NCBI RefSeq assembly: GCF_008124835.1
Contig: NZ_VNHW01000006.1
Span: forward strand, 1-64,000
DNA from: Blastococcus xanthinilyticus
GTDB taxonomy: Bacteria > Actinomycetota > Actinomycetes > Mycobacteriales > Geodermatophilaceae
Length of the DNA: 64,000 nt
Direction of reading: 5' to 3'
Shown one piece after another: positions 19,195 through 53,491 of the stretch. Under the pieces are notes generated by a model that was not told the DNA's origin, did not search any database, and saw only the letters and a program-made list of their open reading frames with translations. Position 1 is the first letter of the stretch; every line of letters starts with the position of its first letter. The position numbers and the translations under genes were made by a program.

Positions 19195-20792
19195 CGGGCG
19201 TCGTCCTGGCCCTGGCCGATCGGATCGCTCTCGCCGGGCCGGTCAGGGGCTAATCCGTCGAGGCGTTCGGCGGGCCAGGCCGCAGGCGGGCCGTCCGCGA
19301 GGTGCTGGGCTTGCCCGTTCTCGACCGGTCTTGTCGGCATTGTTCCGCCGTCAGGACGACGCTCCCGGCCATGCCCGCCTCCGGTCGCCGTCCCTCCGGC
19401 GGAGCCGTTGCCGCGCGCCGGTACCCGGGCGGGCACCGGCTGCCCGTAGTAGGGGTGGGAGTGCCCGACTCCGGCGCCCGACAGCACGTCGGACGCCGAG
19501 GCGGCCACCCCCGCGGCCAGTCGGCCGGCCGTGGAGGTGCCCGTGGTCAGCGCACGCAGCGCGCCGGCGAAGCGCCCGCTGGTCGCCACGTCCGCGGTCG
19601 ACTCGCCCTGCGCGCGGTCACCGGCCAGCTGCGCCGCGGCACCTGAGGCAGCCACACCACCGGATGCCGCACCCGCCGCCGCGGTGGCCACGGCCGCACG
19701 CCCGCCACCAGCCTTCTGCAGCGCGCCCATGACTCCACCGGACGCGGCCAGCGACGAGCGCAACGACGCCCCACTCGACGTGCCCGGGTCGACGAAAGCC
19801 AGCAGCCGGAACAGCGCCAGCGGACAGATGGCTCCGAGCAGGATGAGCAGACAGCCCACCACCGCCATACCGATCGCGGCCTCGGTGCTCGTCTCCTCAG
19901 CTCCGGTGAGGATGCCCTCGGTGATCGTCACTCCGACGCCGAGGACGAGCACAGCGACGGGCGCAACCAACAGCGCGGCGAGGAACCAGCGCAGGCTCCG
20001 CCAGAACCACGTACTCGACGTCTGCACCAGCAGTCCTCCTGCCGAGATCGCCGAGGTCGCGGCCAGCACGATCAGCGCCGCCTCGCGGACCAGCATCAGC
20101 AGCAGGTAGCCCACGCTGGCCGGCACCAGCAGGAAGATCGAGCTGACCCCCAACACGGTCGCGACCGTGCCGTCGACCAGGTCGCGGCTCACGCTGATCG
20201 ACGGGTCGAAGGCGGCCATGGTGTCGATGTCCAGCAGGCTGCGCAGCAGGGCGGTGGTCAGCCCCGAGACGCCGGTGACCAGCAGCGCCGCCACCCCGAC
20301 GTAGCCGGCCCAGACCAACCCGAACTGCACCAGCCCGATCAGCAGCCGGCCCAGCGTCTGCCCGTCCCGGCGCACCGCCGCGACGCCCAGCTGGACCATC
20401 GCCATCATCGCGGCCACGGTCGCGCCGATGCCGAACGTCACCGGATAGACCGCGGCCAGGGGTCCGCCGGCCGACAGATCCGGGGTGGCCAGGGCGTCGA
20501 TCACTGAGAACGCCAAACCCAGCAGCCACAGCCCGGCCTCCCACAGCGACAACATGGCGTTGACCCAGACGTCTTCGACCACGGCGCCCGCTGCTTCGCC
20601 GATCACGCAGAACGGGTTGAGCGGCAGGCAGGGCATCGAGCCGCCCACCCCTGGAACCGCCGGGAACGCCACCACGGTGGAGTCAGCTGCAGCTGAACCT
20701 GTGGACAACCAGCAGATCACCAGCGACAGAAGGAGGACCGCTCCCAGCCTGCGCCCCCAGCCGCTACGCCCTCCGCGTCGCTGCTCAGACAT
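19191..20792 (-). CDS. VirB6/TrbL-like polytopic channel protein
   Basis: This 533-residue protein has a signal peptide or first helix (LGAVLLLSLVICWLSTGSAAA) and then at least six hydrophobic segments between residues 60 and 360, followed by a long Ala/Gly- and Pro-rich tail. That is the layout of TrbL/VirB6 inner-membrane channel components. I chose ATG 20792, which overlaps the upstream gene by 8 bp; the open frame continues to 20966 but would read through most of the neighbour's end. It is coupled downstream to the SCO6880-like gene by ATGA. Confidence 0.82.
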   Translation of the reverse strand: MSEQRRGGRSGWGRRLGAVLLLSLVICWLSTGSAAADSTVVAFPAVPGVGGSMPCLPLNPFCVIGEAAGAVVEDVWVNAMLSLWEAGLWLLGLAFSVIDALATPDLSAGGPLAAVYPVTFGIGATVAAMMAMVQLGVAAVRRDGQTLGRLLIGLVQFGLVWAGYVGVAALLVTGVSGLTTALLRSLLDIDTMAAFDPSISVSRDLVDGTVATVLGVSSIFLLVPASVGYLLLMLVREAALIVLAATSAISAGGLLVQTSSTWFWRSLRWFLAALLVAPVAVLVLGVGVTITEGILTGAEETSTEAAIGMAVVGCLLILLGAICPLALFRLLAFVDPGTSSGASLRSSLAASGGVMGALQKAGGGRAAVATAAAGAASGGVAASGAAAQLAGDRAQGESTADVATSGRFAGALRALTTGTSTAGRLAAGVAASASDVLSGAGVGHSHPYYGQPVPARVPARGNGSAGGTATGGGHGRERRPDGGTMPTRPVENGQAQHLADGPPAAWPAERLDGLAPDRPGESDPIGQGQDDAR

Positions 20793-21591
20793 AGCGCAGG
20801 TCCCGGTAGCCGGCTGCGATGGCCGCGTCAGTGCCCGGCCAGACCGAAGGCGCCGGCGCCGGCTCCTCCCCCGGTCCGATGACCCACCGGTCCCCGACCC
20901 AGGCCATGCGCTGGCAATCGGCGATCGCGATCCGGGAGGTCTGCTCCACGGTGACGGTGAACTCAAAGTTCACGCACACCACGGCGAAGTCCTCGCCCAC
21001 CGTGCCCTTGATCAGCCCCATCACCGGACGGACGACGATCGCCAGCTGCGGCGACCCCGCACCGGACAGGCCCGCTGCAGACAACAGGCTGGCCATGCCG
21101 TCCACCCCGGACCACGTCTCTGGCGTCGGCCCGCCCAGAGCGGCCCACTCCGCGATTACCCGTCGCACGCCGTCCATCGAGCCGCTCTGCATCGCCGTCA
21201 CGTCGATCGCCGCCAACTGCGCCAGCGCGCCCTCCGGAGTTCGCGGAAAGCCGGTGGGCACGTCCGCCGGGCCAACGCCGGTGGCGCGCGGCAGCTCGAG
21301 GACGCCCGCAGCCTGCCTCGACACCGGGCCAGGCAGCGCGTCATCCGGGTCGGCGGTGGGCATCGGCGCGGCGGCCAGCGCATCGTGACGCGACATGTCC
21401 CGGGAGGGAGCTGCAGCCTGTCGTGCGGCGTCCCTCTCGTCCGGCTCCTCCTTGAGCCATCCGACAACTGCCAGGACCAGGCCGGCCACCACCGCCAGCG
21501 CCACCAGCGCGCTGACGACGAGCGCCACAAGCAGACGTGCCGAACTCCACTCTGGCGCACCGCTCCCCTGGACGTCGGGACGGCGGCGCAT
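20785..21591 (-). CDS. VirB8/TcpC-like single-pass T4SS protein
   Basis: The protein (268 residues from ATG 21591) has a short cytoplasmic N-terminus, one strong membrane helix (about 20-45, LLVALVVSALVALAVVAGL) and an extracellular domain whose last 150 residues could adopt the NTF2-like VirB8 fold (segments ending in AVVCVNFEFTVTV and AIADCQRMAWVGDRWVIG). VirB8/TcpC proteins bridge channel components. The start at 21591 forms TGATG with the preceding stop; a GTG nine bases upstream is also in frame. The fold assignment is tentative, the operon membership firm. Confidence 0.75.
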   Translation of the reverse strand: MRRRPDVQGSGAPEWSSARLLVALVVSALVALAVVAGLVLAVVGWLKEEPDERDAARQAAAPSRDMSRHDALAAAPMPTADPDDALPGPVSRQAAGVLELPRATGVGPADVPTGFPRTPEGALAQLAAIDVTAMQSGSMDGVRRVIAEWAALGGPTPETWSGVDGMASLLSAAGLSGAGSPQLAIVVRPVMGLIKGTVGEDFAVVCVNFEFTVTVEQTSRIAIADCQRMAWVGDRWVIGPGEEPAPAPSVWPGTDAAIAAGYRDLRYV

Positions 21592-21971
21592 CAGGTGCAC
21601 CCACTACCGGTGATGGAGTCGAGGATGACCAGGATGACCGTGTAGGTGATCGCCACCATCACGACCACCGCGACGCCCATCGCCCCGAAGCGGGAGGCAT
21701 GCGGATGAGAGAACAACCGGCCCACCAGGACCGAACCCAGCGACACGACCGCGGCGACGCCGATCAACGCGAGTACTCCCCACTTCACCCACGCCGTCAC
21801 CTGATCGGCGAAGACCTGCACGCCCGGCGGCGCCTCCGGGCAGACCGCCGCGCCCAGCTCCACCTGCGCCGCGTTGGCAGGCCACGCGGTCAGCACAATC
21901 AGGCCCGCAGCGACGAGCGCGACCGTCGAGGCCGCTCGCACCGCTGCTGGCGCGGTCCTCTGGCGGTTCAC
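21591..21971 (-). CDS. Small secreted/membrane protein, VirB2 pilin-like
   Basis: The 126-residue product has a signal sequence ending near AWPANAAQ, then a short polar part with cysteines (VCPEAPPG) and two membrane helices (about 62-86 and 95-118). That pattern of a processed precursor with two hydrophobic helices resembles VirB2/TrbC pilins and the corresponding small proteins of Gram-positive T4SSs. GTG 21971 overlaps the ParA-like gene's stop (GTGA). A terminal CT with cysteine is unusual. The pilin role is inferred from size, topology and position. Confidence 0.65.
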   Translation of the reverse strand: MNRQRTAPAAVRAASTVALVAAGLIVLTAWPANAAQVELGAAVCPEAPPGVQVFADQVTAWVKWGVLALIGVAAVVSLGSVLVGRLFSHPHASRFGAMGVAVVVMVAITYTVILVILDSITGSGCT

Positions 21972-29566: not shown

Positions 29567-32500
29567 TCAGCTCGCTTTGTGATTCCACTGTCGGCGGAAG
29601 AGGATCTCGGCGGTTCTAGGTGGCAGGTCTTCTTCGACCTCGGCGTCGTGGTTGGCCAGGATCCGGGCGACGTAGGCGTCGGCCTCCGCCCGGTTGCCCT
29701 GGGCATCGCAGGCGGCGACCAGGTCGAGCAGCGGCACGTCCTCGTAGCTGCCGGCTTTCAGCGCCACATGAGCAGCGGCCGCGGCAAGCTCGGGCTCGCC
29801 GACGGCGAGGTGGTGCGTCGCGACGGTGTGTGCGACATCGACGATCATGGCGGCGTACTCGTGGTCCAGCCGCGAGTTCTCATCGACCAGCCAGCTGTAG
29901 CCGCCGGGCGCACCCTGCCGCGACGTGGGCAGGTCGAACGGCTGCCCGGTGACCAGGTCGAGAGCGGCCTGTAGGTCCGCTATCCCGTCGACACCGCGGG
30001 CCAGTCCGCGGACTCGCAGGCGACGGAACAGCTCGGCGTCGATGAGGACATCGTCGACGCGATAGCGGCCGACCCCGCCGGTGGTGACCCCGGACGGGAG
30101 GTAGTCCGCGCCGGTCGCCGGGTTGGTGCCCAGCCAGGCGCGCACGATCGAGATCGACTGCCGCACCTTGGTCTTGCCGACGACATCGGGCTCGTTGGGC
30201 CAGATCGCGGTGGCGTAGCGCTCGCTGGTCACGCTGCCGGGCCGGGTGGCCAGGTAGGCGACGATCTCGGTGTAGAACTGCCGCCGCGGGTTGCGCTCGG
30301 GCAGCTTGCCCTGCGCCTGCACTCCGACCGGTCCGAGCAGAGTCACCTTCGGCCGCGGGCAGGACGGGTCGGCCCAATCGGCGAGGTCGGCGTCCAGGGC
30401 AGGGTCGGCGACCTCGACCTGGTTGCGGATGCCCGCATCCGTGGCGGGAGCCAGGGCGTTCAGGTCCTGCTCGGTGGTCGCGGCTCGATCCAGGTACGTC
30501 TGCACGGACAGCGGCAGCACCGAGTTGGCGATCCACGGCGAGGTGTCTGCCAGGCCGGACACCGGGACGTCGTCCGCTCCGGCCACAGCTGGTGGTTGCG
30601 AACGCGCGGCGCGGGATGGGTCGACGCGGAGGCCGCCGCAGGCGTCGGCGTGCTCGTCCCAAGGCTTGTCCCCGTGGGCCGGTGGCATGGGTCGGTCGTC
30701 GGTCAGGGTGGCCAGCGCAAGCATCTCCGCCAGCTGCGTGGCCTCGTCGGCCGGGATCTGCTGCGCGATCAGCTCGACTCCCAAGGCGGGGATGCTCAGC
30801 ATGCCGGCCTCGTCGACAGTCAACTGCCAGCGACCGGCCTCCGCGTGGTCCGGGTCGTCGATCAGCACCAACCCGGCCGCGCCGCGGGCGCGCTGCTGCT
30901 TCATGGCGGTGATCAGCCGTTCCAGGCCGGCGCTGTCGCTGGCAACAGCCGGGGCGATGAACAGCACGTGCGCCGCCCACGCGTCGCCGGCCACGTCGCG
31001 CATCCGGCCCGACAGCAGATCGACCTCGGCCATTCGCATGGCCTCGGTGACCGATTCCAGGTGGCCGTCGAGCCCCGCGATCGCCTTCTCGACGTCGTCG
31101 GTGTAGGTCAGCCGGTCGGGATTGATCTGAGCCAACTCCTGGCCGAAGCCGACCAGGGTCACCTGCAACATCTCCGACCACGTGTTGTGTGCAAGCTCGG
31201 CAGCGAGGAACCGTGCCAGGTTCAGGCAACGTTCGGCGTCCCCGGACAGCGACAGGGGCGCGGCCCGTTCCAGGTCGAGCAGCCAGTGCTCGCCCTCGGT
31301 CGTGTAGCCCACCGACGCGAGCATGGGGAACGGTGCGAAGAAGTACGCCCGCCGCTGCTCGTCATAGGTCAGCGGATCATCGCGTCGGATCGACCAGCGG
31401 GTGCCGGCCGGGTCCACTGTCCACGGCGCCGGGGCCTCCGAGATCGGCTCGGTGAGTACCAAGGTCAGGACGTCGTCGGTCATGCAAGCGGCCACCACAT
31501 CGGGCAGGCGAGCGCCGTCGACCCTCGCCAGCGCCTGCACCAGTGCCCGTAGCGCCTGGTCCAGCCAGGTGACGTCGGCACTGCCGACGCTGCCTGCCTC
31601 CTGCAGCGCTCGTTCGACGTGCAGCAGCTCTGGTGGTGTGCTGCCGATGATGCGGCCGGGACGTCGCTGCCGGAATTGCCTGCGGCGATAGCGCAGCAGC
31701 GCAGTCAGCGAGGCCCCGGCCAGCAGCAGCCCACCGCCAGCGGCGAAGGCGATCATCGGCAGCTCCACGGTGCTACCCGTCGAGGTCTCCTCAGGCCTCG
31801 CGGGCAACGGCTCGGCGCTCGTCGGTGCAGCCGTGGGAGACGAGGTCGGGGCGTTGGTGGCCGGGCCGGGCGCGGGCGGAGGCGGCGCATCGGTGCCCGG
31901 CGTGGTCGAGTCAGCGGGCGGGGCGGCGCTCGGGGCTGGCCCTGATGGCTGTGGCGGCTCGGTCGTGGGCGGTGCCGGCTCGGCTACAGGAGGCCCGGGT
32001 GCGCTGGAGGCGGACGTCGCAGGACTGGTCGGGTCCGGGATGCTCAGGGTCCAGCCCGGTCGGATCAGCGACGGGTCGGTGTAGGTGGCGCCTGCGGGCT
32101 GACTGCGTCCCCGGTTGAGCTCCCAGGCTTGTCGCCAGTTGTGTCCGCTGCCGGTGATCTCCTCCGTGAGGTCCCACAGGGTGTCACCGGGTTCCACGGT
32201 GACGTCCTCGATGAGAGTCGCGGTGGTCGGGGCTTGGCCCATCGGCGGCAGCCGGACCGCGTCGGGCGGCAAGACCAGCACCGTGCCCGGGAGGATTTCG
32301 TTGTCCGGACCGACCGAGGTCGGGTTGAGCCGGGCGATCTCCGGATACCGCAACGGGTCCCCGAGATGCCGCTCGGCCAATGCCCACAGGGTGTCCCGGC
32401 GCTGCACCTGGTAAGTCGTGGTCTCAGCCGGAGGTGTGTGCTCGTCCGGCATCGAGTAGGTGACGGGTGTCTGCGCTGTGACCGGTGCGCTGGCGTACTG

Positions 32501-32938
32501 CGCCGACGACGGGACGACAGTGGATGTGGCCGAGACCGGAAGCGGCGGCGCCGTTGCGGTGGATGCGGGGCCGCCGGTGGTCAGTGGAGCGACGGTGAAG
32601 CCGACCGCGACGGCAGTGACCAAAGCGGCGGCCGGGCGCTGGAAGGTTCCCAGGCCGGGGAGGGCCGGAGCCGGCCGTGCGCGGGCGAACGCGACGACCT
32701 CCGCCACTGTCGCGGCGGTGAACAGGGCCCAGCACACCCACACGCCTGCTGCGAGGACGAGTCCAACCAGCTGTCCGTTGTCGCGGGACGTCAGGACGGC
32801 GCCGACCTCGTCCAGCGACGGCAGGCTGTCCGGAACCAGGTGCAGCACCGCCAGGAGCACCGGTACGCCGACGACGACGGCGAGCAGCGCCACAAGGGCG
32901 CCCACGGCCCTGAGCAGGAGGGCGACGCGGCCGGTCAC
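29567..32938 (-). CDS. Membrane protein with LysM domains and BTAD regulatory domain (Tad operon)
   Basis: This 1,123-residue protein starts with three membrane helices within residues 1-120, then two LysM domains (about 175-225 and 245-300, each with DTLWALAER- or DTLWDLTEE-type starts), a Pro/Thr-rich linker, another membrane helix (about 392-420), a long cytoplasmic region and a C-terminal winged helix plus BTAD module (about 880-1110; VTLLGPVGVQAQGKLP and KTKVRQSISIVRAWLG). Similar LysM-BTAD proteins accompany actinobacterial Tad loci. It may sense cell-wall state and regulate pilus genes. Its GTG overlaps the previous stop; it is the last gene of the pilus operon. Confidence 0.85.
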   Translation of the reverse strand: MTGRVALLLRAVGALVALLAVVVGVPVLLAVLHLVPDSLPSLDEVGAVLTSRDNGQLVGLVLAAGVWVCWALFTAATVAEVVAFARARPAPALPGLGTFQRPAAALVTAVAVGFTVAPLTTGGPASTATAPPLPVSATSTVVPSSAQYASAPVTAQTPVTYSMPDEHTPPAETTTYQVQRRDTLWALAERHLGDPLRYPEIARLNPTSVGPDNEILPGTVLVLPPDAVRLPPMGQAPTTATLIEDVTVEPGDTLWDLTEEITGSGHNWRQAWELNRGRSQPAGATYTDPSLIRPGWTLSIPDPTSPATSASSAPGPPVAEPAPPTTEPPQPSGPAPSAAPPADSTTPGTDAPPPPAPGPATNAPTSSPTAAPTSAEPLPARPEETSTGSTVELPMIAFAAGGGLLLAGASLTALLRYRRRQFRQRRPGRIIGSTPPELLHVERALQEAGSVGSADVTWLDQALRALVQALARVDGARLPDVVAACMTDDVLTLVLTEPISEAPAPWTVDPAGTRWSIRRDDPLTYDEQRRAYFFAPFPMLASVGYTTEGEHWLLDLERAAPLSLSGDAERCLNLARFLAAELAHNTWSEMLQVTLVGFGQELAQINPDRLTYTDDVEKAIAGLDGHLESVTEAMRMAEVDLLSGRMRDVAGDAWAAHVLFIAPAVASDSAGLERLITAMKQQRARGAAGLVLIDDPDHAEAGRWQLTVDEAGMLSIPALGVELIAQQIPADEATQLAEMLALATLTDDRPMPPAHGDKPWDEHADACGGLRVDPSRAARSQPPAVAGADDVPVSGLADTSPWIANSVLPLSVQTYLDRAATTEQDLNALAPATDAGIRNQVEVADPALDADLADWADPSCPRPKVTLLGPVGVQAQGKLPERNPRRQFYTEIVAYLATRPGSVTSERYATAIWPNEPDVVGKTKVRQSISIVRAWLGTNPATGADYLPSGVTTGGVGRYRVDDVLIDAELFRRLRVRGLARGVDGIADLQAALDLVTGQPFDLPTSRQGAPGGYSWLVDENSRLDHEYAAMIVDVAHTVATHHLAVGEPELAAAAAHVALKAGSYEDVPLLDLVAACDAQGNRAEADAYVARILANHDAEVEEDLPPRTAEILFRRQWNHKAS

Positions 32939-33360
32939 GACAGTCCCTCACCGGAGGTGACCCCGACCAACAGCTGAGCGGTGTGCACGCGGGTCTGGCT
33001 GACCGGGATGCCGAGCAGCGGTGTCGAGTCGGTGACGGTCACGCTGACCTCGACGATGCCGGGACCGGTGACGGTCACCGTGCCGGTCGCGCCGGCTCGA
33101 TCGAGGTAGGAGCGGGCCGCGGTCGCCGCCAATTGCGCGTCGGTGCTGCCGCCGGTGGGAACCGGGCCGATGGCGATGCTGGCCGCGCGGGCGGCCTCAG
33201 CCGAGTACGTGTCGGCGCGGTTGGCGGTCTGGATCGCGGTCCCGGCGTCGACAAGCGCGGTGACCAGGACGCCGGTGATGAGCACGATGAAGCAGAACAG
33301 CACGGCCACGGACCCGCGGTCGTCCTGGAGTTGATCGCTGGCTTGCGAGCGGGGTGTCAC
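32935..33360 (-). CDS. TadE/Rv3654c-like pseudopilin
   Basis: The 141-residue protein has a short basic leader (DDRGSVAVLF) and one membrane helix (VLFCFIVLITGVLVTALVDA), followed by an extracellular domain. That is the pattern of TadE/TadG-like minor pilins, which the prepilin peptidase could cut before the helix. GTG 33360 overlaps the preceding stop (GTGA), and its stop overlaps the LysM-BTAD start. It is the third pilin-like protein in this operon with the RGS leader. Confidence 0.82.
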   Translation of the reverse strand: MTPRSQASDQLQDDRGSVAVLFCFIVLITGVLVTALVDAGTAIQTANRADTYSAEAARAASIAIGPVPTGGSTDAQLAATAARSYLDRAGATGTVTVTGPGIVEVSVTVTDSTPLLGIPVSQTRVHTAQLLVGVTSGEGLS

Positions 33361-33824
33361 GACAGGTCCCTGGCAGGGTCCAGCGGGCTGGTGGCGCTGT
33401 CGTGCAGCGTCCGGGAACCGGGCAGGCCGGCAACTCCACCGATGTCAGACAGGTCGACGGTGCAGGACACAGCAACGGTGACCGACGCCGAGGCGCCCGG
33501 CGGCGCGATGAACCCGGATGTGTCGACGCTGACCTGGACGTCGATGCAGAGCAGGCCCTGGCTGGTCAGTGCGGTGGTGGCAGTTTCGGTGGCGATCTGT
33601 TGGGCCGCGGCGGCCGATCGGGCCAGCGAGGCGTCCCGCGCCGCGATCCCGGCAACGCCGCTGATGCGGTCGCCGGCCAGCGCGATCCGGGCGCCGACCA
33701 CCAGCATGGCCACCAGGAGGAGTCCGACCGGCAGCAGGATCGCCAGCTCGACCGACTCCGAGCCGCGGTCGTCCCGCCACCGCCCTTGACGGCTGGTCGT
33801 GGCCGGCTGCACGTCGCGACTCAT
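33357..33824 (-). CDS. TadE-like minor pilin
   Basis: This 155-residue protein has the leader DDRGSESVELAILLPVGLLL, with Glu at the +5-like position after a short basic segment, typical of TadE-type pseudopilins. One membrane helix is followed by a secreted domain containing two cysteines (LLCIDVQV and AVSCTVDL) that could pair. I selected ATG 33824, overlapping the previous stop as ATGA; the open frame extends upstream with no supporting start. It probably initiates or modulates Flp pilus assembly. Confidence 0.83.
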   Translation of the reverse strand: MSRDVQPATTSRQGRWRDDRGSESVELAILLPVGLLLVAMLVVGARIALAGDRISGVAGIAARDASLARSAAAAQQIATETATTALTSQGLLCIDVQVSVDTSGFIAPPGASASVTVAVSCTVDLSDIGGVAGLPGSRTLHDSATSPLDPARDLS

Positions 33825-34291
33825 GGCGAGTCCGGGGTGGTGAAGCGTTCCTTGCCGCGCACCACGGTGACATCGACGGTCGGGGCGAAGCCGGGCAGCG
33901 GGATCACGTTGGGCACGCTGGCGGTGACGTGTACCGAGACCGTGGTAGCGGTGTCGGACTCGGTCACCGAATAGCCGGTGATCGTGCCGGTGCCGAGGTT
34001 GTCCAGGTACGTGTCCGCCGCCGCCCGCCCCGCTCCCCCGACCGCCCCGTGGACGCTCGCGGCGCGGGCTCCGGCGTGCGCCGCGGCGTCGGCCGCTTCC
34101 CGGGCGAAGTACCACAGCGCGAGCTGCGGGCCGGCCAACAGCAGCGCGACGATGATGGGGAACAGAATCGCGAACTCGACGCTGGATGAGCCCCGCTCCC
34201 TTCCCCGGCCGCGATCCCGGAGAGAGCCCGGGCGCGCGACCGGACCGTGCGGCGAGGAAGCCGCACGGTCCGCAGTACGCGCCTCGAGCAT
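33821..34291 (-). CDS. TadE-like minor pilin
   Basis: The product carries RERGSSSVEFAILFPIIVAL, the TadE leader with its conserved Glu, then a membrane helix and an extracellular domain. From ATG 34291 the protein is 156 residues with an unusually long (about 33-residue) pre-leader; a start 54 bases upstream would overlap the end of the Flp gene. No strong ribosome site marks either. It ends in an ATGA overlap with the next TadE-like gene. Confidence 0.8.
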   Translation of the reverse strand: MLEARTADRAASSPHGPVARPGSLRDRGRGRERGSSSVEFAILFPIIVALLLAGPQLALWYFAREAADAAAHAGARAASVHGAVGGAGRAAADTYLDNLGTGTITGYSVTESDTATTVSVHVTASVPNVIPLPGFAPTVDVTVVRGKERFTTPDSP

Positions 34292-34307
34292 GGGATGGCT
34301 GCCCGTT

Positions 34308-34544
34308 CTACTGGAACAGCGACGTCTTGCTGGCCACGAACGCAATAGCCGCTGCGCTGACCGCGCCGCCCAGAGCGATGGCCAGGATCACCATGAAGGC
34401 CTTCTCTGAGGAGTCCGAGCCTCGGTCGTCGGCGACTTGCTCGGTGCGCAGCCAGGCCAGGACCGACAGAGCCATGACAGACAGGGCCATGACGCATTGC
34501 GCCACGATGGCCTGCTCACCCCGGCGAGCCGTGGGCTGGAACAT
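34308..34544 (-). CDS. flp: Flp-type major pilin
   Basis: The 78-residue product ends with a single hydrophobic helix in EKAFMVILAIALGGAVSAAA, resembling Flp pilins of actinobacterial Tad systems. An upstream hydrophobic stretch (IVAQCVMALSVMALSVLAWL) is unusual for an Flp pilin, which normally has only one. AGGAGG lies 6 nt before ATG 34544, which fixes the start; the 26-bp gap from TadC is the widest in the operon and may allow extra expression. It should be cut by the prepilin peptidase at 41156-41794. The assignment as the main pilin is by position and size. Confidence 0.72.
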   Translation of the reverse strand: MFQPTARRGEQAIVAQCVMALSVMALSVLAWLRTEQVADDRGSDSSEKAFMVILAIALGGAVSAAAIAFVASKTSLFQ

Positions 34545-34570
34545 GGGAAACCTCCTGGTTGGCGCTGCGG

Positions 34571-35470
34571 TCACGATGAGATCCCGAACATGCGGAGCAT
34601 GAAGGGAACGAGCACGAACAGGGTCAGTCCAGTGACCAGCAGGGCCAGCGGGCGCGACATCCGCTCGCTGACCTGATTGGCCTGGGTACGGGCGTCGGAC
34701 AGCTCGGCGTGGCGAAGCGTGCGGGCGCTGGCCAGCAGGGTGTTGTAGACCGAGGCGCCGTCGGCGGCTACTGCCGCGATGTCGGCGAGGTTGCGCAGCT
34801 CGGCGACCTGTAGCTCCTCACCGAGGTCGCGCAGCTCGCCCCACGGCTTGCGGCCGGACAGCGCTGCCCGGCGGATGGCGCGGCGCATGCGAACGAACGG
34901 CATGCTTCCCGAGATCTCGGCGGCCTCCTCCAGCGCCTGCTCCACCGAGCCGCGCGCCCGACGTTCACCGGCCACCAGGGTGAGGAAGGACTCGAGGTTG
35001 CTCCGGAACTCCATCCGCGCCTTGTCCGCCGCCTCACGGGCCTCGGCCGAGGGCAAGAACCACCCGACGACGGCGATCCCGAGCCCGACCGCGGCGGGCA
35101 GGACGAAGGGCACCGGAACGTCGACCAACACGAGCACCAGGCCGAACAGGGACGGAGTGAGCAAGCCGGCGAGTGCCAGGGTCAGCTTGCGGGCCGCCAG
35201 CTGAGCGCGGGTCCAGCCGATGATCGACAGGTCGGCGTCCGAGACGCCCAGATGCCCGTCCAACACCCGCGCCACCGGCACCGGCAGCCAGTCCCACCGG
35301 TTCTGAATGGACGCCGGCACCGACGGCGCCGTTCGCACGGTCGGCTCGGCCGCCAACTGCTCCAGTGCGGCCACCAACGACGGCGGCGCCGGACGCAGGG
35401 CACGGACCCCGAGTACGAGGCCGCCGGCGATCAGCATCCCGGCGAGGGTTGCCGTCTGCAGCCCGGTCAC
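34571..35470 (-). CDS. tadC: TadC-like pilus inner-membrane protein
   Basis: This 299-residue protein belongs to the GspF/TadC family of platform proteins. Membrane helices lie near 5-25, 95-140 and 275-299, and the cytoplasmic part between them has the family-type charged helices (RMEFRSNLESFLTLVAGERR, RKPWGELRDLGEEL). GTG 35470 overlaps the TadB stop (GTGA). With TadB it should form the membrane platform driven by the TadA ATPase. Confidence 0.88.
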   Translation of the reverse strand: MTGLQTATLAGMLIAGGLVLGVRALRPAPPSLVAALEQLAAEPTVRTAPSVPASIQNRWDWLPVPVARVLDGHLGVSDADLSIIGWTRAQLAARKLTLALAGLLTPSLFGLVLVLVDVPVPFVLPAAVGLGIAVVGWFLPSAEAREAADKARMEFRSNLESFLTLVAGERRARGSVEQALEEAAEISGSMPFVRMRRAIRRAALSGRKPWGELRDLGEELQVAELRNLADIAAVAADGASVYNTLLASARTLRHAELSDARTQANQVSERMSRPLALLVTGLTLFVLVPFMLRMFGISS

Positions 35471-36333
35471 GGATTCACCGGAGCCGGGGCCGGATCGAAG
35501 AGCACCCGCGGGGGCTTGACCGGCTCGGACAACCGGCGCATCCACCGCAGCGAGGTCGCGAAGATCGCCACCACTGCCAGGAGGGCGATCTGCCCGGCCG
35601 GCGTCGAGTAGCCCGACAGGAAGGTCCGGGCGAACAGCGTCATCCCGACCACCAGCACCAGCGTCACCACGACGATGGTGCGCATGTTCGACCGCGGCTT
35701 GGCGCGTTCGGCCTCCACCTCACGGACCATGCGGGAGCGGTCGTCGAGGTCGGCAGCCAGGGCGGTGAGCACCTCGGCGAGCCCTGGCCCCCCGTTGCGC
35801 TCCCGCAGGATGAGCACCATGGCGATCTTCTCGGCGGCTGGATCGTCGATCTCGCGGGCGAACTGGCGCAGCGCGGTCTCGGTGCCCTGCGGCCCCATCC
35901 TGTTCACCAGGTTGGTGACCGCGGGGGCGAGCGGCTCCGGCACCGAGCTGAGGGAGCGGCGCAGAGCATCGCGCGTCGAGCCGGCGGCGCCAGAGCTGAT
36001 CAGGTCGGCCAACCGTCGCGTCCAGTCCGCCAGCGCCTCGGACGTAGCTATCAGTCGCTTGGCTGCCTGACCGCCGCCGAGCACCTTCGGGATGAATACG
36101 ACGCCGCCCGCGGCGCCCAGCGCCGCGGCCGGCCAGCCCGTAACAAGCAGAGTGAGAACGCCGGCGGCCAGCGCACCGAGGAGCAGTGGAGTGGCTCGCC
36201 GCCAGGAGGACGAGCGCACCGACGGCGAACGCTCCGGCAGGAAGGAGACGCCGCGCACCGCCCCGACGACGCCGACCAGGCCGGCCGAGAGCAGCAGCCC
36301 GGACAGGGTCAGCAGCAGCGCGCCGGCGGTCAC
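35467..36333 (-). CDS. tadB: TadB-like pilus inner-membrane protein
   Basis: The 288-residue product has a GspF-type domain (LADWTRRLADLISSGA, then LPRERNGG-like LILRERNGGPGLAEVL) flanked by paired helices at both ends (about 5-75 and 215-265). GTG 36333 overlaps the TadA stop (GTGA), while the open frame extends further upstream in another register of the neighbour. It is coupled to TadC downstream. The order TadA-TadB-TadC is that of standard Tad loci. Confidence 0.88.
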   Translation of the reverse strand: MTAGALLLTLSGLLLSAGLVGVVGAVRGVSFLPERSPSVRSSSWRRATPLLLGALAAGVLTLLVTGWPAAALGAAGGVVFIPKVLGGGQAAKRLIATSEALADWTRRLADLISSGAAGSTRDALRRSLSSVPEPLAPAVTNLVNRMGPQGTETALRQFAREIDDPAAEKIAMVLILRERNGGPGLAEVLTALAADLDDRSRMVREVEAERAKPRSNMRTIVVVTLVLVVGMTLFARTFLSGYSTPAGQIALLAVVAIFATSLRWMRRLSEPVKPPRVLFDPAPAPVNP

Positions 36334-37814
36334 GACGCACGCTCGCGGCGGTGGAAACCGGTGCGCCAGTCCGAGGCGCCCGGCTGCAGCCAGTCCAGAT
36401 CGAAGCCGGTCGCGGTCAGCCGCTCGGCCAGTGACTCGCTGAGCATCCCCGGCCCGGTGGCCTGCGCGCGCCCGTCCTCCGCGCGCGGCGCGAAGATCGG
36501 CTTGAGGTCGGGTCGACCGGAGTCCCCGATCGGGCCGAGTTCGTAGATGCCCGAGACATACCGGGCGTAGTCGCGGTCGCGATGCACGTGCACGACCAGG
36601 TTCAGGGCGGCCAGTGAGCGCAGGACCAGCTCCGGGGAAGGTGCCGGATGCGCCTTCAGCGCGTTGATCAGCACCTTGTCGAACACGCCGGCGGCCGACG
36701 GCGAATGGATCGTGCACATGACCGACGAGATGCCGCTGGTCGCCGCCTCCAGCAGATAGGTGACATAGGCGCCGCGGACCTCACCCACGAGTACCCAGGT
36801 CGGGGACGCGCGCAGTGCCAGGTGCAGCGCATCCCCCATGTCGAACCCGCCTCTACCTTCGGCGTTGGGCAGTCGGGACTCGAACGGTCGGCACACCGCG
36901 TGCCGCCTGACCAGCTGCCGGCGGTCGGGATCCCACCGAGGCAGGTGCAGGCCCAGCTCCCGCTCGTCCTCCACGGTGATGACCACGTTGTTCCACGGGA
37001 TCGCGTTGCCCAGCGCACGCAGCAGCGTCGTCTTGCCGACCCCCGGCGCTCCGCTGATCAGCGGCGATGCGCCGGCGAGGATCGAGGCATGCAAGAAAGC
37101 TCGGACCGGTGAGTCGACCATGTCCATGCCGTGGAGGTCGTCGAGGCTCGGATCACTGAACCGGTGCACCCGGATCACCCCGGCCGGGCGCGGCAGCACG
37201 TCCATCGCCGCCTGCAGCCGGGCGCCCAGCTCGGTCACGCCGTTCAGCCGCACGTTCAGAATGGGGTTGGCCGAAGAGAACTCACGGCTGGTCTGCCCGT
37301 CGTCCGACCGTGAACCGATTGACCGCAGCAGCTGCTCGAGCTCCTCGTCGCTGGAGGCGATCGCCGGCCCGGGCACCAGTTGGCCACTGGCCATCCGCAG
37401 CATCGTCGGCTCGCAGCCCTCGAAGTGGATGTCCTCCACGTCGTCCAGGGCCATGAGGGGAGCCAGTCGCCCCAGCCCGTCCAGCTCGGCCAGCACGGCC
37501 TCGAAGATCGTGTCTTCGGTGGTCACCGTCGGCGCCGGACGGCCGCGGTTGGCCTCGTGCAGCAGCCACTGGTCGTACTCGTCCCGGATCAACTTCCGGG
37601 TCAGCTCTCGCCGCGGGCCTGGGGCGTAGTTCCTGTCCTCCACCGTCAACCGGGTCGACACCCGGTCACGCAGCTCCACGACGACGCGGTACTCGGTGCT
37701 GTTGAGCTCTCCGGTTTCGATGGGCGTGGCGTCGACCGGCGCGGCCGCCGGCCGCAGCAAGTCACGGCCGGCCGGGACTTCCCACCGCGGCGACGCGGTG
37801 TCCTCACTGCTCAT
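36330..37814 (-). CDS. tadA: TadA/CpaF-family pilus assembly ATPase
   Basis: This 494-residue secretion ATPase powers Flp pilus assembly. Walker A is SGAPGVGKTTLLRALGNAIP (about residue 258), the Asp box VITVEDERELGL follows, and the His-box-like region SSVMCTIHSPSAAGVF is near 380. The N-terminal 200 residues are the CpaF-type N-domain (ILNVRLNGVTELGARLQAAM). Walker B-like VLVGEVRGAYVTYLLEA is near 350. ATG 37814 overlaps the TadZ stop (ATGA). Confidence 0.93.
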   Translation of the reverse strand: MSSEDTASPRWEVPAGRDLLRPAAAPVDATPIETGELNSTEYRVVVELRDRVSTRLTVEDRNYAPGPRRELTRKLIRDEYDQWLLHEANRGRPAPTVTTEDTIFEAVLAELDGLGRLAPLMALDDVEDIHFEGCEPTMLRMASGQLVPGPAIASSDEELEQLLRSIGSRSDDGQTSREFSSANPILNVRLNGVTELGARLQAAMDVLPRPAGVIRVHRFSDPSLDDLHGMDMVDSPVRAFLHASILAGASPLISGAPGVGKTTLLRALGNAIPWNNVVITVEDERELGLHLPRWDPDRRQLVRRHAVCRPFESRLPNAEGRGGFDMGDALHLALRASPTWVLVGEVRGAYVTYLLEAATSGISSVMCTIHSPSAAGVFDKVLINALKAHPAPSPELVLRSLAALNLVVHVHRDRDYARYVSGIYELGPIGDSGRPDLKPIFAPRAEDGRAQATGPGMLSESLAERLTATGFDLDWLQPGASDWRTGFHRRERAS

Positions 37815-38593
37815 CCGGCCACCGCCTCGGCGACACGGGACGCCTCCATCGGACTGGTCAGCGTTTGGGCCAGGGAAGACGCCGCGCGCAGCAGGGCGGA
37901 CCGTCGCAGCGTCTTCGGACTGACGGTCGCGCCGTCGGAGAGCGCCTGCGCTGTAGTCCGGTCATAGGGCAACGTGCCCGCCAGCGGCAGGTCCAACGCC
38001 TTGGCAACTTCGCCGGCGGAGTACGGACCGTCCCCGACCACGAGTGCGGAGACCTTCCCCAGGTCGCCCAGTTCATGGCGCAGTCGTTGCGTCGCATCCT
38101 GCGCCGCGTGCACCGACCGCACGCTGGGCCGCACCGCCAGCAGCACCCGATCGGCGGCTCGCAGCACCGGCCAGCATCCGCGCTCGGTCAGCAGTCGTCC
38201 GGCGTCGACCAAGGCGTCCCGCCCGATCGACGCATTCGATGTGTGCAGGGCCGACGCCAGCCGCTCCCATGCCTCGGCGGTGAACGAGGTGCCCTGCGCG
38301 GCGGTCGTCACTCCCGGAACCAGCCACACCTGCGGCTGCTCGGGGACCTCCACCGCATGCTCGACGAGTATCGTGGCGGCCTGCGTCGCCGGGACACCCC
38401 GCCTGGCCGCCGTCGACCATGACAGCAGTCCCCGGTCGACGCTGACCCGGCCGGCCAGCAGCCCCGGCGCCATGTCCCCGCCGGCCGGGTCACAGTCGGC
38501 CACCAGCAATGGCCCTGGCCACGCCAGGGCCAACGCCCAGGTCGAGGTGGTCACCCCGGGCGCGGCCTTTCCCGAGGTCACGACGGTGAGCAT
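37811..38593 (-). CDS. TadZ/CpaE-like MinD-family localisation protein
   Basis: The 260-residue protein resembles the ParA/MinD domain of CpaE/TadZ: an altered P-loop SGKAAPGVTTSTWALALAWP at residue 7, DCDPAGGDMAPGL for the switch I Asp, and VSALVVGDGPYSAGEVAKAL with a late MinD-type strand. The lysine of GK[ST] is replaced by valine, and TadZ proteins with atypical Walker A are known. There is no receiver domain. It probably places the pilus at a cell site. It is coupled to TadA downstream and follows the SAF protein after 4 bp. Confidence 0.8.
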   Translation of the reverse strand: MLTVVTSGKAAPGVTTSTWALALAWPGPLLVADCDPAGGDMAPGLLAGRVSVDRGLLSWSTAARRGVPATQAATILVEHAVEVPEQPQVWLVPGVTTAAQGTSFTAEAWERLASALHTSNASIGRDALVDAGRLLTERGCWPVLRAADRVLLAVRPSVRSVHAAQDATQRLRHELGDLGKVSALVVGDGPYSAGEVAKALDLPLAGTLPYDRTTAQALSDGATVSPKTLRRSALLRAASSLAQTLTSPMEASRVAEAVAG

Positions 38594-38597
38594 CGGT

Positions 38598-39332
38598 TCA
38601 CCGCCCCGCCGGCAGCAGGATCAACGCCAGGTTGCCGGTCGATGCCAGTTCGGCCACCTGCACGCCGTCGTCCGCGCTGACTCGCACGTCGACCACCGTC
38701 ACTTGTGTGGCCTGGTTCAGCGGACCGACCTCGGCGACCGTCGCGTCGATCTGCTGATCGCGATCGCCTCTGGGCTCGTCCGTCGGGGTACCGCTGCCGA
38801 TGGTCGAGCCGGTGCTGCCGGGCGTCGCCACGATCAGTACCCGCTGGCCTGGGCTCAGCCCGCGGGCCGGAAACTGCCCTTCCTTCAATGGCAGGGCTAC
38901 CAACATCTCCCCCGCCGCGAATCCGCTGTCCGGGCCGACCTGCGCGCCGGTCAGCAGCTCTCCCCGGGTCAGTGGGACCTGGGCGACCATCCCGACGATC
39001 TGGGACCGCTGCGACGCTGGGATCGGTGACAGGTTGGGATCCGACGTCACGTTCGCAACCGCCAGATCCTCCGTGGTGATCGTCGAGCCAAGCGGCACGT
39101 CTCGGGCGACCGCCAGCACCTCCGTGTGCGCGGTCAGCATCTGGCCGGCGGCGAGAGCCAGCAGCCCCCCGAGCAGCACGAGCAGCACGCTCAGAACCAG
39201 CGACTTGCGGCTGGTACGTCTCCTTGCCGCGGCGCTACGCAGCGGAGGAGCCGGCGGCGGCGCGGCCTCGGGCGCCGGAGCCGGATAGCGCCCGGCCGCC
39301 GGCGACACCATCCCGTCGACCCGCGTCGTCAC
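38598..39332 (-). CDS. CpaB/RcpC-like SAF-domain protein
   Basis: This 244-residue protein has a proline-rich cytoplasmic start, a membrane helix (LVLSVLLVLLGGLLALAAGQ) and an SAF domain (about 75-140; VLAVARDVPLGSTITTEDLA, then GMVAQVPLTRGELLTG). That matches CpaB/RcpC proteins, which in Gram-negative Tad systems support the secretin and in Gram-positive ones may organise the pilus at the wall. GTG 39332 overlaps the preceding stop (GTGA). The open frame runs much further upstream, within the neighbouring gene. Confidence 0.83.
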   Translation of the reverse strand: MTTRVDGMVSPAAGRYPAPAPEAAPPPAPPLRSAAARRRTSRKSLVLSVLLVLLGGLLALAAGQMLTAHTEVLAVARDVPLGSTITTEDLAVANVTSDPNLSPIPASQRSQIVGMVAQVPLTRGELLTGAQVGPDSGFAAGEMLVALPLKEGQFPARGLSPGQRVLIVATPGSTGSTIGSGTPTDEPRGDRDQQIDATVAEVGPLNQATQVTVVDVRVSADDGVQVAELASTGNLALILLPAGR

Positions 39333-40294
39333 CTGATCACCACCGACTGCACCTCCGCCACCGCGAACGTCGCGTTCGAGGTCGTCGTCAGACCCGGCAG
39401 CGTGCCGGTGGCCCCGGTCGACGAGGTCCAGGTGACCGACCACTGGATTCCGTACGTCGCCGTCACCCGCCCATCGGGCTGGTGGATCGATGAGTGCGGG
39501 TACCGGTAGTCGCAGCCCGCCGGCGACGGGGTCCACACCCCGTTGCCCGGCCGCCAGGCCACGCCAGGACCGGGACACGACACCGCGGCAGCCCCATCGC
39601 CCGGCGTGAACGACAGCGACGTCGGGGTCACGCTCACTTCCGCCCACACGCCTCCAGCGTCGGCACGCGCGGTCAGCGCTCGGAAGGATTCGGGGGCGGT
39701 CCAGAACCAGGTGTAGGCGTTGACGACCGTGAACGGCTGCCCGTCCTGCAGCGTCCCGGCCGGATATCGGCCCGTTGTCGGTGACGGCACAGTGAGTGTG
39801 CTGAGCGCCTGTTGCGCGAGCTGCGCTGGATCGATCGCGGGCGGAGCCGCTGGCGGGGTCGCCGACCAGAAGCTGAAGCCGTTGGTACCGGGGAACGCCC
39901 CACCGCCGGTGTAGGAAAGACAGCTGTAGATGGCGCCATCCGTGCGACCGCCCCAGATGGGCGAGTCCTTCGGAGGCTGGTGGGCCATCGCCTCCACGTA
40001 GCACTGCATGTCCTGTGCCCACCATGCCTGGCCGTCCTGGCAGGGAATGACGGTGCCGGAGGGGCTGACAGTGCAGACAGCCGGCGAGGTACCGCCACCG
40101 GCGGCGGGAGTTGTTGCGCTCGTTGGGGCCGCCGTCCCGCCGTCACCCTCGCCCGTCTCGACTTCGACCACGCAGATGCCGTGCGAGTCGTACTGCTGGC
40201 AGGTCGCCGGGTCAGCGACAGCAGTCGGTGGAAGGACCAGCGAAGCGCAGACGCACAGCAGCGCACCCGCCAGGCCGAGGGCTACTCGTCGCAT
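39329..40294 (-). CDS. Secreted protein of Tad operon, unknown
   Basis: The product (321 residues from ATG 40294) has a signal peptide (ALGLAGALLCVCASLVLPPTAVA), then a cysteine-containing extracellular region with a Thr/Pro-rich linker and a tryptophan-rich C-terminal domain. It likely sits outside the membrane as a pilus-associated factor. I know similar secreted proteins beside actinobacterial SAF/TadZ genes but no function. The gene overlaps the lipoprotein's end by 13 bp and couples to the SAF gene by GTGA. A start at 40333 is also in frame. Confidence 0.72.
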   Translation of the reverse strand: MRRVALGLAGALLCVCASLVLPPTAVADPATCQQYDSHGICVVEVETGEGDGGTAAPTSATTPAAGGGTSPAVCTVSPSGTVIPCQDGQAWWAQDMQCYVEAMAHQPPKDSPIWGGRTDGAIYSCLSYTGGGAFPGTNGFSFWSATPPAAPPAIDPAQLAQQALSTLTVPSPTTGRYPAGTLQDGQPFTVVNAYTWFWTAPESFRALTARADAGGVWAEVSVTPTSLSFTPGDGAAAVSCPGPGVAWRPGNGVWTPSPAGCDYRYPHSSIHQPDGRVTATYGIQWSVTWTSSTGATGTLPGLTTTSNATFAVAEVQSVVIR

Positions 40295-40899
40295 GACTGC
40301 GCCTGCCGGTTCGGTGCCTCGCTGACCCGCCACGACGACGTGTCCGGATAGTTCGGGTTCACCACGGTGAGTTGCTGGATGAGGTATCTCGGACGACCGG
40401 GCGGCACGATGGACGACCCGGAGGCATCGATCGCGTCCACCTCGCCCACGTCAACGCAGGCGGTGACGACGACGGTCGGCAATACGGGTGACGGCGAAGC
40501 GGCGGGCCTGTTCGAGAGGTCAGTGCTGGCGGCAGACGCGGTCACCAGTTGCGACCGGCCGGCCTGCCGGTAGCCCTGAGACCGGAACTTGCCGATCGCC
40601 GTGGCCTGGGCTGTGGCTTCCGGAGCCACAGCGACCTGGTGGATCCCGTCGAGCGGGAGCGACGGGTCGAGGTACAGGTCGTCGATGGTCTCCAGGTAGT
40701 CCGGAACGAGCGCGATCGCCAGTGCCTGCGCTTCCTCGACGGGGCCCGGAGTGGGCGGTGAGGGGCTCGGCGTCTGAGAAGGCGCTGTCCCAGACATCGG
40801 CGGACTCGACGAGCCGGGGTCGGACGACGACGAACAACCCGAGGCCGTCAGCGCCAGGAGCACCGCGGCTGCCCCCGCCACCGTCCGTATCACCGTCAC
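40282..40899 (-). CDS. Putative lipoprotein, first gene of Tad operon
   Basis: The 205-residue protein has a signal peptide with the lipobox LTASGC, then a Ser/Pro-rich stretch and a domain of about 130 residues near TADE-like repeats (AIALVPDYLETIDDLYLDPS). Such small lipoproteins often head these loci. It might tether the pilus base or act as a pilotin-like factor; function is not known. It begins the operon that runs to 29567, with operator-like half-sites 94 bp upstream. Confidence 0.78.
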   Translation of the reverse strand: MTVIRTVAGAAAVLLALTASGCSSSSDPGSSSPPMSGTAPSQTPSPSPPTPGPVEEAQALAIALVPDYLETIDDLYLDPSLPLDGIHQVAVAPEATAQATAIGKFRSQGYRQAGRSQLVTASAASTDLSNRPAASPSPVLPTVVVTACVDVGEVDAIDASGSSIVPPGRPRYLIQQLTVVNPNYPDTSSWRVSEAPNRQAQSCDE

Positions 40900-40992
40900 G
40901 CCTGTTCACCTCCCAGCACGTCACCGTCCGTCGACCGAGGTTGCCCTCCCGGCCGAGCGGACGTGTGACCGTCGTCTCGTTCCCACCCTTTC

Positions 40993-41010
40993 GGGTGACA
41001 GGTTGTCCCT
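40993..41010. promoter_or_regulatory. Operator-like half-sites between Tad operon and prepilin peptidase
   Basis: GGGTGACA and TGTCCCT stand 3 nt apart. On the minus strand this reads AGGGACA, 3 nt, TGTCACCC: the same half-sites as in the repeat array at 23924-23978, where AGGGACA and TGTCACCC are 6 nt apart across the unit boundary. The distance to the first operon gene (94 bp) is similar to that at the T4SS operon (86 bp). Confidence 0.5.
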
Positions 41011-41155
41011 GAGTCCGTCACTCGTCCTCCGCGTCTGGGTGTATCGCGTGGTCCTGACACGCTCCCGCACCGGAAGCTGGGATGGCGCAGATATCCACAG
41101 GGCTGCGCAGCGAGGGGCAAACAGACCCCTGGAGCTCGAGGGTGGCCGCCAGCGG

Positions 41156-41794
41156 ATGAACGGCACGTGGATGGCGGCGTCAGCGGCGGCAGCGTTGATC
41201 GGCGCCGCAACCACCCCCTGGCTTACTTCTCGTGGGCTTGCGCAGCTCGCGCGGCTCGACGCTGCCCGCCCGGGCCTGGCGCTAGCCAGCGCCGTCGCCG
41301 GCGGTGGGGCGGGAGCCGCAGCGATCGTGACGTCTCACCGGGCGGGGACGTGGTGGCTCGTGCCCGCCCTGATGGTCTGGGGATGCGCCCTGGTCGCCGC
41401 GGCCTCCTGCGATGCGGTCACCCAACGCATCCCGACACCGCTCGTCCGGCAGGCCGCCGTCGGTACCGGCGTGCTGCTGACCGTCGGTCTCGTTGTGGAC
41501 GGTGGCTGGCGCGGCCTGCTGCTCAGCGGAGTCGCTGCTGCAGCGGCGGGCGCCGTCCTGCTGTTGTGCTGGCGGTTCGCGGGAGCGGGATTCGGTGACG
41601 TCCGACTGGCTGCACTCGGCGGTCTGGGTCTCGGACACGCCACGCATCGCGGCTTGTTGTTGGCGTTCATCGCATTCACCGTGATCACCGTGACGCAGGC
41701 CGTAATCACGCTGATGCGTGGTGGGGACCGCCAGAGCACCTTTCCCTACGGTCCTGCCCTCGCGGTTGGCTTCCTGCTTGCGGCCACCCTCTGA
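41156..41794 (+). CDS. A24 prepilin peptidase (TadV/CpaA-like)
   Basis: This 212-residue polytopic membrane protein carries the two catalytic aspartates of A24 peptidases: the first in ASCDAVTQRIPTPLV (about residue 85) and the second in the GxGD-like GAGFGDVRLAAL (about 143). Small CpaA/TadV enzymes of this length lack the methylase half. It should process the Flp and TadE-like pilins encoded by the divergent operon. ATG 41156 is preceded by only a weak ribosome site; the open frame extends to 41003. Confidence 0.87.
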   Translation: MNGTWMAASAAAALIGAATTPWLTSRGLAQLARLDAARPGLALASAVAGGGAGAAAIVTSHRAGTWWLVPALMVWGCALVAAASCDAVTQRIPTPLVRQAAVGTGVLLTVGLVVDGGWRGLLLSGVAAAAAGAVLLLCWRFAGAGFGDVRLAALGGLGLGHATHRGLLLAFIAFTVITVTQAVITLMRGGDRQSTFPYGPALAVGFLLAATL

Positions 41795-46067: not shown

Positions 46068-46075
46068 CAGTGCAG

Positions 46076-50841: not shown

Positions 50842-50844
50842 GCC

Positions 50845-51696: not shown

Positions 51697-51871
51697 GAAC
51701 GAGAGATTGCCCCCGTGACCGCCGGCATCAGAGCCAGGTGAATTCAGGAACCGCCGCGGCACGGCTGGGATCTCCCGCTTAGGTGTCTGGCAGACGAGCT
51801 GTCCATACCTCGCCCTACCTTGCGATGCAGTGCCTCCCCCGGGCGGCGTCACGAGACCAGAGAGGTTCGTC

Positions 51872-53381: not shown

Positions 53382-53403
53382 CAGGCACCTCCGACACCAA
53401 GTA

Positions 53404-53424: not shown

Positions 53425-53445
53425 GACCCATCTGACAGAGACAAC

Positions 53446-53483: not shown

Positions 53484-53491
53484 TTGATTTG

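Follow-up and report, generated by a model that had tools for sequence, protein, structure and literature searches.

Tad pilus genes within an integrative and conjugative element

Why would an integrative and conjugative element (ICE) with its own type IV secretion system (T4SS) also carry a Tad/Flp pilus operon? The question is raised by a 64,000-nucleotide stretch of Blastococcus xanthinilyticus DNA (contig NZ_VNHW01000006.1, positions 1 to 64,000; hereafter the window), in which Tad genes lie between the T4SS genes and an integrase gene. Sequence comparison supports the view that the Tad operon is conserved within this ICE lineage. The element is delimited in genome G011, where exact 39-bp repeats (1183801-1183839 and 1276147-1276185) enclose 92.3 kb that hold the integrase, Tad, T4SS and relaxase genes. 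The window begins at a contig end, which places the left end of its own ICE copy beyond the contig. The original prediction had described the Tad genes as ICE backbone, a view that would be contradicted if relatives without the ICE had Tad at this locus. Genomes G009 and G013 are such relatives; they retain the tRNA-Asn/dnaG locus, and both Tad and T4SS are absent there. Together with the position inside the exact attachment (att) repeats of G011, this rules out that Tad is a chromosomal neighbour miscounted into the ICE. The description as backbone stands, with Tad on the same contig as the T4SS at 56 of the 72 loci described below.

Co-occurrence of Tad and T4SS in relatives

The co-occurrence of Tad and T4SS was surveyed through the SCO6880-family gene of the T4SS core. 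Within a set of 40 genomes, which includes the window's own and counts two SCO6880 fragments of G018 once, this gene is found in 17 genomes at 28 loci. An ICE-type TadA gene lies on the same contig, 12-49 kb apart, at 25 of these loci. For the remaining three, Tad is on another contig (G004 and G018) or no ICE-type TadA was found (G014). The 22 same-genus genomes comprise 14 with both systems, one with the T4SS only (G014), one with Tad only (G003) and six with neither (Fisher p 0.0006, a value that ignores shared ancestry). Blastococcus aggregatus (G022) alone harbours six such T4SS loci.

For an independent sample, the genome_contigs collection (84,980 species, one genome each) was scanned using only an SCO6880 protein alignment as the query. 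The scan yielded 72 loci at 40-97% identity, spread over Blastococcus, Geodermatophilus, Modestobacter, Klenkia, Kineosporia, Tessaracoccus and other Propionibacteriaceae, and metagenome bins; near-copies (e.g. L225/L226 and L251/L253/L254) are kept, and several loci are the same elements as among the 28. Tad genes stand on the same contig at 56 of the 72 loci; at 45 of them the evidence is TadA or several Tad genes, and at the other 11 it is only a gene for a LysM protein with a bacterial transcriptional activator domain (LysM-BTAD) in the 10-kb flank. By distance, 36 of the 56 carry Tad within 10 kb upstream (several Tad genes at 20, the LysM-BTAD gene only at 16, five of these with TadA confirmed elsewhere), 14 more have TadA 18-33 kb away on contigs whose lengths were checked, and the last six were already known from element blocks of relatives, one of them (G012) with a Tad deletion. 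The other 16 loci (L223, L228, L229, L261, L264, L267, L272, L282, L284, L285, L286, L288-L291 and L294) mostly reach contig ends, have Tad on a different contig, or lie on a contig not followed to its end. For L223, L261 and L282, the assembly has Tad on a different contig; L228 corresponds to G014, and at L285 the 10 kb upstream flank holds no Tad and the contig continues beyond the stretch read. No locus with long Tad-side flanks among the 72 was shown to lack Tad; G014 comes closest. The order, strand and place of Tad upstream of the T4SS core are constant down to about 41% T4SS identity. The records of L225 and L254, titled 'UNVERIFIED_ORG: Bacillus sp. AZ43', hold Geodermatophilus/Blastococcus-like elements, and the assembly is probably mislabelled.

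Controls across the class

The generality of this linkage was assessed in 148 genomes drawn across the class, with a TadA threshold of E 1e-30 or better. TadA is present in 48 genomes, a TraG-D_C protein in 59 and an SCO6880 protein in 64. Fifty SCO6880 loci have a TraG-D_C gene within 30 kb; TadA lies within 60 kb at 4/50 of these with the own locus included, hence at 3/49 others, and 4/50 is a lower bound given short contigs and the TadA threshold. This rate rules out that actinobacterial SCO6880-type T4SSs are paired with Tad across the board, and it indicates that the linkage is not due to the sheer abundance of Tad. Tad is a partner of this T4SS lineage and of a few others, but not of actinobacterial T4SSs as a whole. 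In the three other positive genomes (G049, G114 and G117), Tad, VirB4 and VirD4 occur together, with MobF in two. G049 contains several SCO6880 loci (G049:C1:226764, 246044 and also 394203), two of which are 15-19 kb from a divergent TadA.

In the TadA tree, the window, Tad-2 (see below) and six plasmid TadAs group in one clade of 41 leaves (support 0.99), separate from another whose members look mostly chromosomal. The tree serves as a hint only, with Kineococcus outside the clade and some clade members having no T4SS nearby. No TadA relatives were found in viral contigs, and phages gave distant matches only, 14 of 15 in unannotated faecal records. The LysM-BTAD gene was considered as a marker of conjugation and rejected: it generally accompanies this type of actinobacterial Tad, also in clusters without a T4SS nearby.

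Two types of Tad with interchangeable T4SS cores

Elements of the same genus carry either Tad-1, the window type (TadA 83-98% identical), or Tad-2 (TadA about 35% identical). Across Tad-1 and Tad-2 elements, the T4SS core is nearly the same, its SCO6880 gene showing 83-97% identity. Two Tad-1 elements (G001_C29 and G022_C11) have a core at 59%, yet Tad at about 80% and VirD4 at 88-90%. A tree of three core proteins rejects Tad-2 monophyly (approximately unbiased test, p-AU 0.0018), and with it the strict inheritance of Tad with one T4SS core. Nearly every element has one of each module, and the core is not tied to one pilus.

The Tad genes are under purifying selection, which maintains them in most copies; G012, with its broken Tad-1, is an exception. 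Comparing the window with five relatives, the ratio of non-synonymous to synonymous substitution rates (dN/dS) amounts to 0.15-0.23 in TadA, and most values of the remaining Tad genes fall within 0.2-0.5, similar to T4SS genes; these values were computed on stop-to-stop frames, some out-of-gene ends included. Such ends have perhaps inflated the ratios of Flp against G001 (0.99) and of CpaB against G019 (0.73) and G022 (0.86).

Gene content of the Tad operon

The Tad operon consists of twelve genes on the minus strand, running from 40899 down to 29567, with overlaps at 10 of 11 gene junctions and a 4-bp gap at the remaining one. The peptidase gene stands divergently (E-values follow the domain names).

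29567..32938, minus: LysM protein of 1123 amino acids, last gene of the operon (Pfam LysM 1e-10); BTAD-type C-terminal part by homology
32935..33360, minus: TadG-like minor pilin (Pfam PF13400 Tad 0.0012, just below the cut-off of 22.3 bits)
33357..33824, minus: TadE-like pilin 1, RGSESVELAILLP, G|xxxxE site and hydrophobic helix
33821..34345, minus: TadE-like pilin 2, RGSSSVEFAILFP, G|xxxxE site
34308..34574, minus: Flp major pilin of 88 amino acids, RGSDSSEKAFMVILAIALGGAV..., with G|SDSSE
34571..35545, minus: TadC (T2SSF 8.7e-07, above the Pfam cut-off)
35467..36333, minus: TadB (T2SSF 6.8e-06, above the Pfam cut-off), start corrected
36330..37814, minus: TadA/CpaF ATPase (T2SSE 1.1e-16, above cut-off; TIGR03819 1.1e-34), P-loop GAPGVGKTT
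37811..38593, minus: TadZ-like ATPase (TIGR03815 3.2e-07, below cut-off)
38598..39332, minus: SAF/CpaB (RcpC)-like protein (SAF 3.9e-08, above cut-off; TIGR03177 3.5e-06, below cut-off)
39329..40333, minus: secreted or surface protein without assigned function, operon member with a hydrophobic N-terminus and homologues in the same place in relatives
40282..40899, minus: lipoprotein with lipobox LTASGC, homologues upstream of the surface-protein/CpaB genes in relatives
41156..41794, plus: divergent A24 prepilin peptidase (TadV-like) of 212 amino acids (PF01478 2.7e-05, 25.0 bits against a cut-off of 26.5, just missed), GFGD motif

TadA with the two TadB/TadC membrane proteins, the Flp pilin, the short A24 peptidase, and TadZ together with RcpC/CpaB identify a Tad/Flp (type IVc) system. 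The matches below cut-off (TadG-like, TadZ, peptidase, and CpaB by TIGR03177) are backed by gene order, pilin sites, the P-loop and GFGD. Three pilin processing sites are present (G|SDSSE, G|SSSVE and G|SESVE). The Flp sequence RGSDSSEKAF and the position of its gene after tadC are those of a Flp-type short pilin, with K after the site in place of the usual Y; its mature part is conserved among Tad-1 relatives. No RcpA-type secretin was found among the Tad cluster proteins scanned with domain profiles. An outer-membrane secretin is not expected in a monoderm.

Domain profiles and motifs thus recovered the TadA, TadB, TadC, TadZ-like, SAF/CpaB, Flp, lipoprotein and divergent peptidase genes of the original prediction. 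Of its three TadE-like pilins, two carry the G|xxxxE site and the third is TadG-like. Its LysM-BTAD regulator is confirmed for LysM; the domain profile scan gave no match to BTAD itself in this protein, and the designation stems from plasmid homologues in the same place, annotated as LysM or bacterial transcriptional activator domain, with BTAD annotated in the Kineococcus plasmid homologue. The starts of TadB (36333), TadE1 (33824), CpaB (39332) and the peptidase (41156) were corrected, and the secreted protein at 39329-40333, previously unlisted, was added.

The transfer module of the element

The remaining components of the transfer and integration machinery are as follows.

166..5778, plus: MobF relaxase-helicase with C-terminal DnaG-type primase/Toprim (TrwC 3.6e-89, AAA_30 1.6e-59, DNAG_N 2.9e-22)
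11190..12713, minus: VirD4/TraG coupling protein (TraG-D_C 3.8e-20)
14946..16409, minus: M23 peptidase (Peptidase_M23 3.8e-28), putative VirB1-like role
16175..17854, minus: VirB4-like ATPase (profile of 15 homologues matches PDB VirB4 4ag5, 3.1e-09; NF045975 4e-11)
17680..19194, minus: SCO6880 family protein, T4SS core (NF042935 2.3e-129)
19191..20966, minus: polytopic membrane protein, VirB6-like by topology only (nine hydrophobic peaks)
20785..21600, minus: VirB8-like protein by AlphaFold2 model (pLDDT 89.5)
21591..21971, minus: small protein conserved in the T4SS core, likely signal peptide and two transmembrane helices, candidate VirB2-like layout
51830..52075, plus: HTH_17 excisionase-like protein (1.3e-08)
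52131..53549, minus: tyrosine integrase (Phage_integrase 3.3e-13), given as the open frame, true start probably further in
53490..53528, plus: att core of 39 bp within the 3' end of tRNA-Asn; in G011 its exact direct repeats are separated by 92.3 kb
53491-53564, minus: tRNA-Asn (tRNA call)

Relaxase, helicase and primase are fused in a single protein of 1870 amino acids (166-5778). The VirB8-like protein gave no matches in the sequence profile search, and plain Foldseek returned only weak NTF2-like matches, none under 0.001; its model has TraM (3wz3), DotI and VirB8 at the top of the VIA-align list, with Z-scores of 9.2, 8.8 and 8.0, respectively. The relaxase, VirD4, VirB4, a VirB8-like component seen in the model, and the integrase with direct att repeats at the tRNA in G011 characterize a T4SS-type ICE. 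An actinomycete ICE (AICE) with TraB/FtsK double-strand transfer was rejected, as the element has MobF, VirD4, VirB4 and VirB8 instead of an FtsK-type TraB as sole transfer protein. The assignment to an ICE in the original prediction is therefore borne out by MobF, VirD4, VirB4, M23, the VirB8-fold protein, the integrase and tRNA-Asn.

Its further premise, a T4SS lacking a known long pilus, is unsafe, because the core includes the conserved protein at 21591-21971 with its VirB2-like layout. For this protein, the PDB profile gave no convincing match and the AlphaFold2 model is of low confidence (pLDDT 67), so that neither profile nor fold prediction confirms VirB2. The accessible text of a 2025 T4SS review states that VirB2 and VirB5 are not found in Gram-positive T4SSs except Patescibacteria (PMC12857230).

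A possible role in mating-pair contact

We lean towards a role of Tad as an accessory pilus on the donor, which would stabilise mating pairs and be loosely coupled to the separate T4SS. The sequences show gene content, position within the element, linkage to the T4SS, purifying selection and module swapping; pilus assembly, adhesion to recipients and an effect on transfer go beyond this and are inferred. TadA, TadB and TadC would grow a filament from Flp subunits cleaved by the A24 peptidase. Thin, probably retractable and adhesive, the filament would pass the cell wall, where it may be anchored or guided by LysM and SAF proteins, to the donor cell surface. The pilus could bring and hold donor and recipient together, or clump (sibling) cells, and the separate MobF/VirD4/VirB4/VirB8 T4SS would then move the DNA. 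Such a role would be akin to that of the type IVb pilus of IncI plasmids, built here with type IVc (Tad) components and in a monoderm actinobacterial host. In IncI R64/TP114, a type IV filament is likewise encoded next to a full T4SS, and is reported to stabilise mating pairs in broth and not to move DNA (excerpts of PMC10654706). The TP114 and IncI pili are described as precedents for an accessory conjugation pilus (PMC10654706; PMC12857230). They differ in their type IVb pilus, PilV adhesin shufflon and diderm hosts; no shufflon was noticed in the window element. The pairing of the core with either Tad type points to a loosely coupled accessory, more IncI-like than a single fused channel of the PAPI-1 kind.

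Tentatively, Tad may even replace a VirB2- or IncI-type appendage as the mating pilus, in the form of exchangeable modules (two Tad types and two or more T4SS cores), a possibility we regard with some doubt. If true, pilus swapping may alter the range of recipients or the susceptibility to pilus-binding phages.

Several observations weigh against a role in mating. G003 retains Tad-1, integrase and excisionase without any T4SS found, and G014 retains the T4SS without a detectable ICE-type Tad, both in fragmented assemblies. In the Tad-1 of G012, TadB is gone and TadA and TadC are incomplete; the same genome has a second element with Tad-2. In 7/12 non-plasmid blocks, the same Tad type with LysM-BTAD has no T4SS or relaxase in the fetched flanks, and the divergent TadA of other families is mostly not near a coupling protein. 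Furthermore, VirD4 and the relaxase follow the Tad type, as would be expected of a closer link or simply of linkage in the backbone. In G003:C3 (L064, L065), Tad-1 with integrase and excisionase at tRNA-Asn represents either a decayed ICE or an element moving with the help of others.

An account that we consider unlikely, albeit a serious contender, is that Tad is adaptive cargo, an adhesion or biofilm pilus useful to the host on stone, soil and other surfaces and linked to the T4SS through the shared element. It is consistent with the adhesive nature of Tad pili in other bacteria (excerpts of PMC5696575), with the Tad of G003 that persists without a T4SS, and with similar T4SS-free Tad clusters in other families. 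However, metal-gene cargo moves and varies (G010, G011), whereas the fixed order, strand and place of Tad extend down to about 41% T4SS identity, and the host genome already has a chromosomal Tad-type ATPase (G000:C8).

It is improbable that Tad is an essential part of a chimeric DNA-transfer apparatus, as proposed for the PAPI-1 type IV pilus or the ESX of mycobacterial conjugative plasmids. The near-constant co-occurrence, the tracking of Tad type by VirD4 and relaxase, and precedents given in parts of PMC12857230 speak for such a machine; the T4SS nevertheless comes with VirB4, a VirB8-fold protein, a polytopic protein and a peptidase of its own, and a tight physical fit is hard to reconcile with a core that combines with two Tad types at only about 35% identity. 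PAPI-1 of Pseudomonas aeruginosa, an ICE-like island, likewise encodes VirB4, VirD4 and a type IV pilus; its pilus is described as essential under all conditions, with few other T4SS homologues known (same review), whereas the window element has a fuller T4SS and may or may not need its pilus.

A pilus for DNA uptake in natural transformation is very improbable: tad genes are needed for it in the actinobacterium Micrococcus luteus (excerpts of PMC4322843), but comEA/comEC were not noticed among the annotated element genes in general domain scans, and Tad is linked here to a DNA export system.

Relation to known systems

Mating contact in monoderm actinobacteria is poorly known, and a T4SS lineage that is nearly always accompanied by Tad makes this question directly testable in a non-pathogen. 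The lineage would also suggest a role for the tad loci on many actinobacterial plasmids. That tad loci occur on mobile actinobacterial DNA is already known. The closest precedent are the linear plasmids of Cutibacterium acnes, likewise actinobacterial mobile elements with a tad locus beside VirB4/TcpC/FtsK-type transfer genes; their pilin was detected in the surface protein fraction, and one tad-bearing plasmid was reported to be transferable (excerpts of PMC5696575; PMC9119108). They are linear, have another T4SS type and come without a lineage-wide survey or module swapping. The link between pili and transfer apparatus was left open in the accessible text of PMC5696575.

The plasmids pKRAD01, pXCEL01, pCPRO01, pYJNG and others share the order SAF-TadZ-TadA-TadB-TadC-Flp-TadE-TadE-TadG-LysM/BTAD in 7/7 annotated records. 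They differ in that only 4/7 show genes of a T4SS or a relaxase in flanks of 20 kb, with varying T4SS types (TcpC, NlpC/C40, M23). The seven records and one from Nonomuraea (11.9 Mb, filed as plasmid, the stretch unannotated) were chosen from the top 31 matches, not randomly.

Tad systems are described as those most often found on plasmids and most often transferred (excerpts of PMC6668835). A word search of the accessible text found no mention of Tad pili in a survey of actinobacterial ICEs (PMC3218068), and the word Tad is likewise absent from the accessible part of the 2025 T4SS review (PMC12857230). No report of Tad as a conserved ICE part was found in a literature search of open-access papers on Tad in conjugation. 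It appears to be new that a single T4SS lineage is almost constantly paired with Tad across at least two families, with two Tad types and exchangeable cores.

Cargo and defence genes

A metal/redox cargo at 43267-51696 comprises genes for cation efflux, CopD and ArsR regulators, together with a DsbA-like/VKOR/thioredoxin/DsbD set. Related Cad/CopD/VKOR cargo genes of G010 and G011 are located between Tad and T4SS, on the opposite side of Tad. The interval between relaxase and T4SS holds a Lamassu-type defence pair (5992-9868, plus strand; LmuA 1.2e-106 and LmuB 2.5e-239 by PADLOC) with a lower GC content (about 0.61). Between T4SS and Tad lies the candidate defence gene PDC-S39 (24027-26033, minus strand; DUF7380/DUF4209, 4.3e-191), which is overlapped on the opposite strand by a SIR2-domain frame (25679-27646, plus strand).

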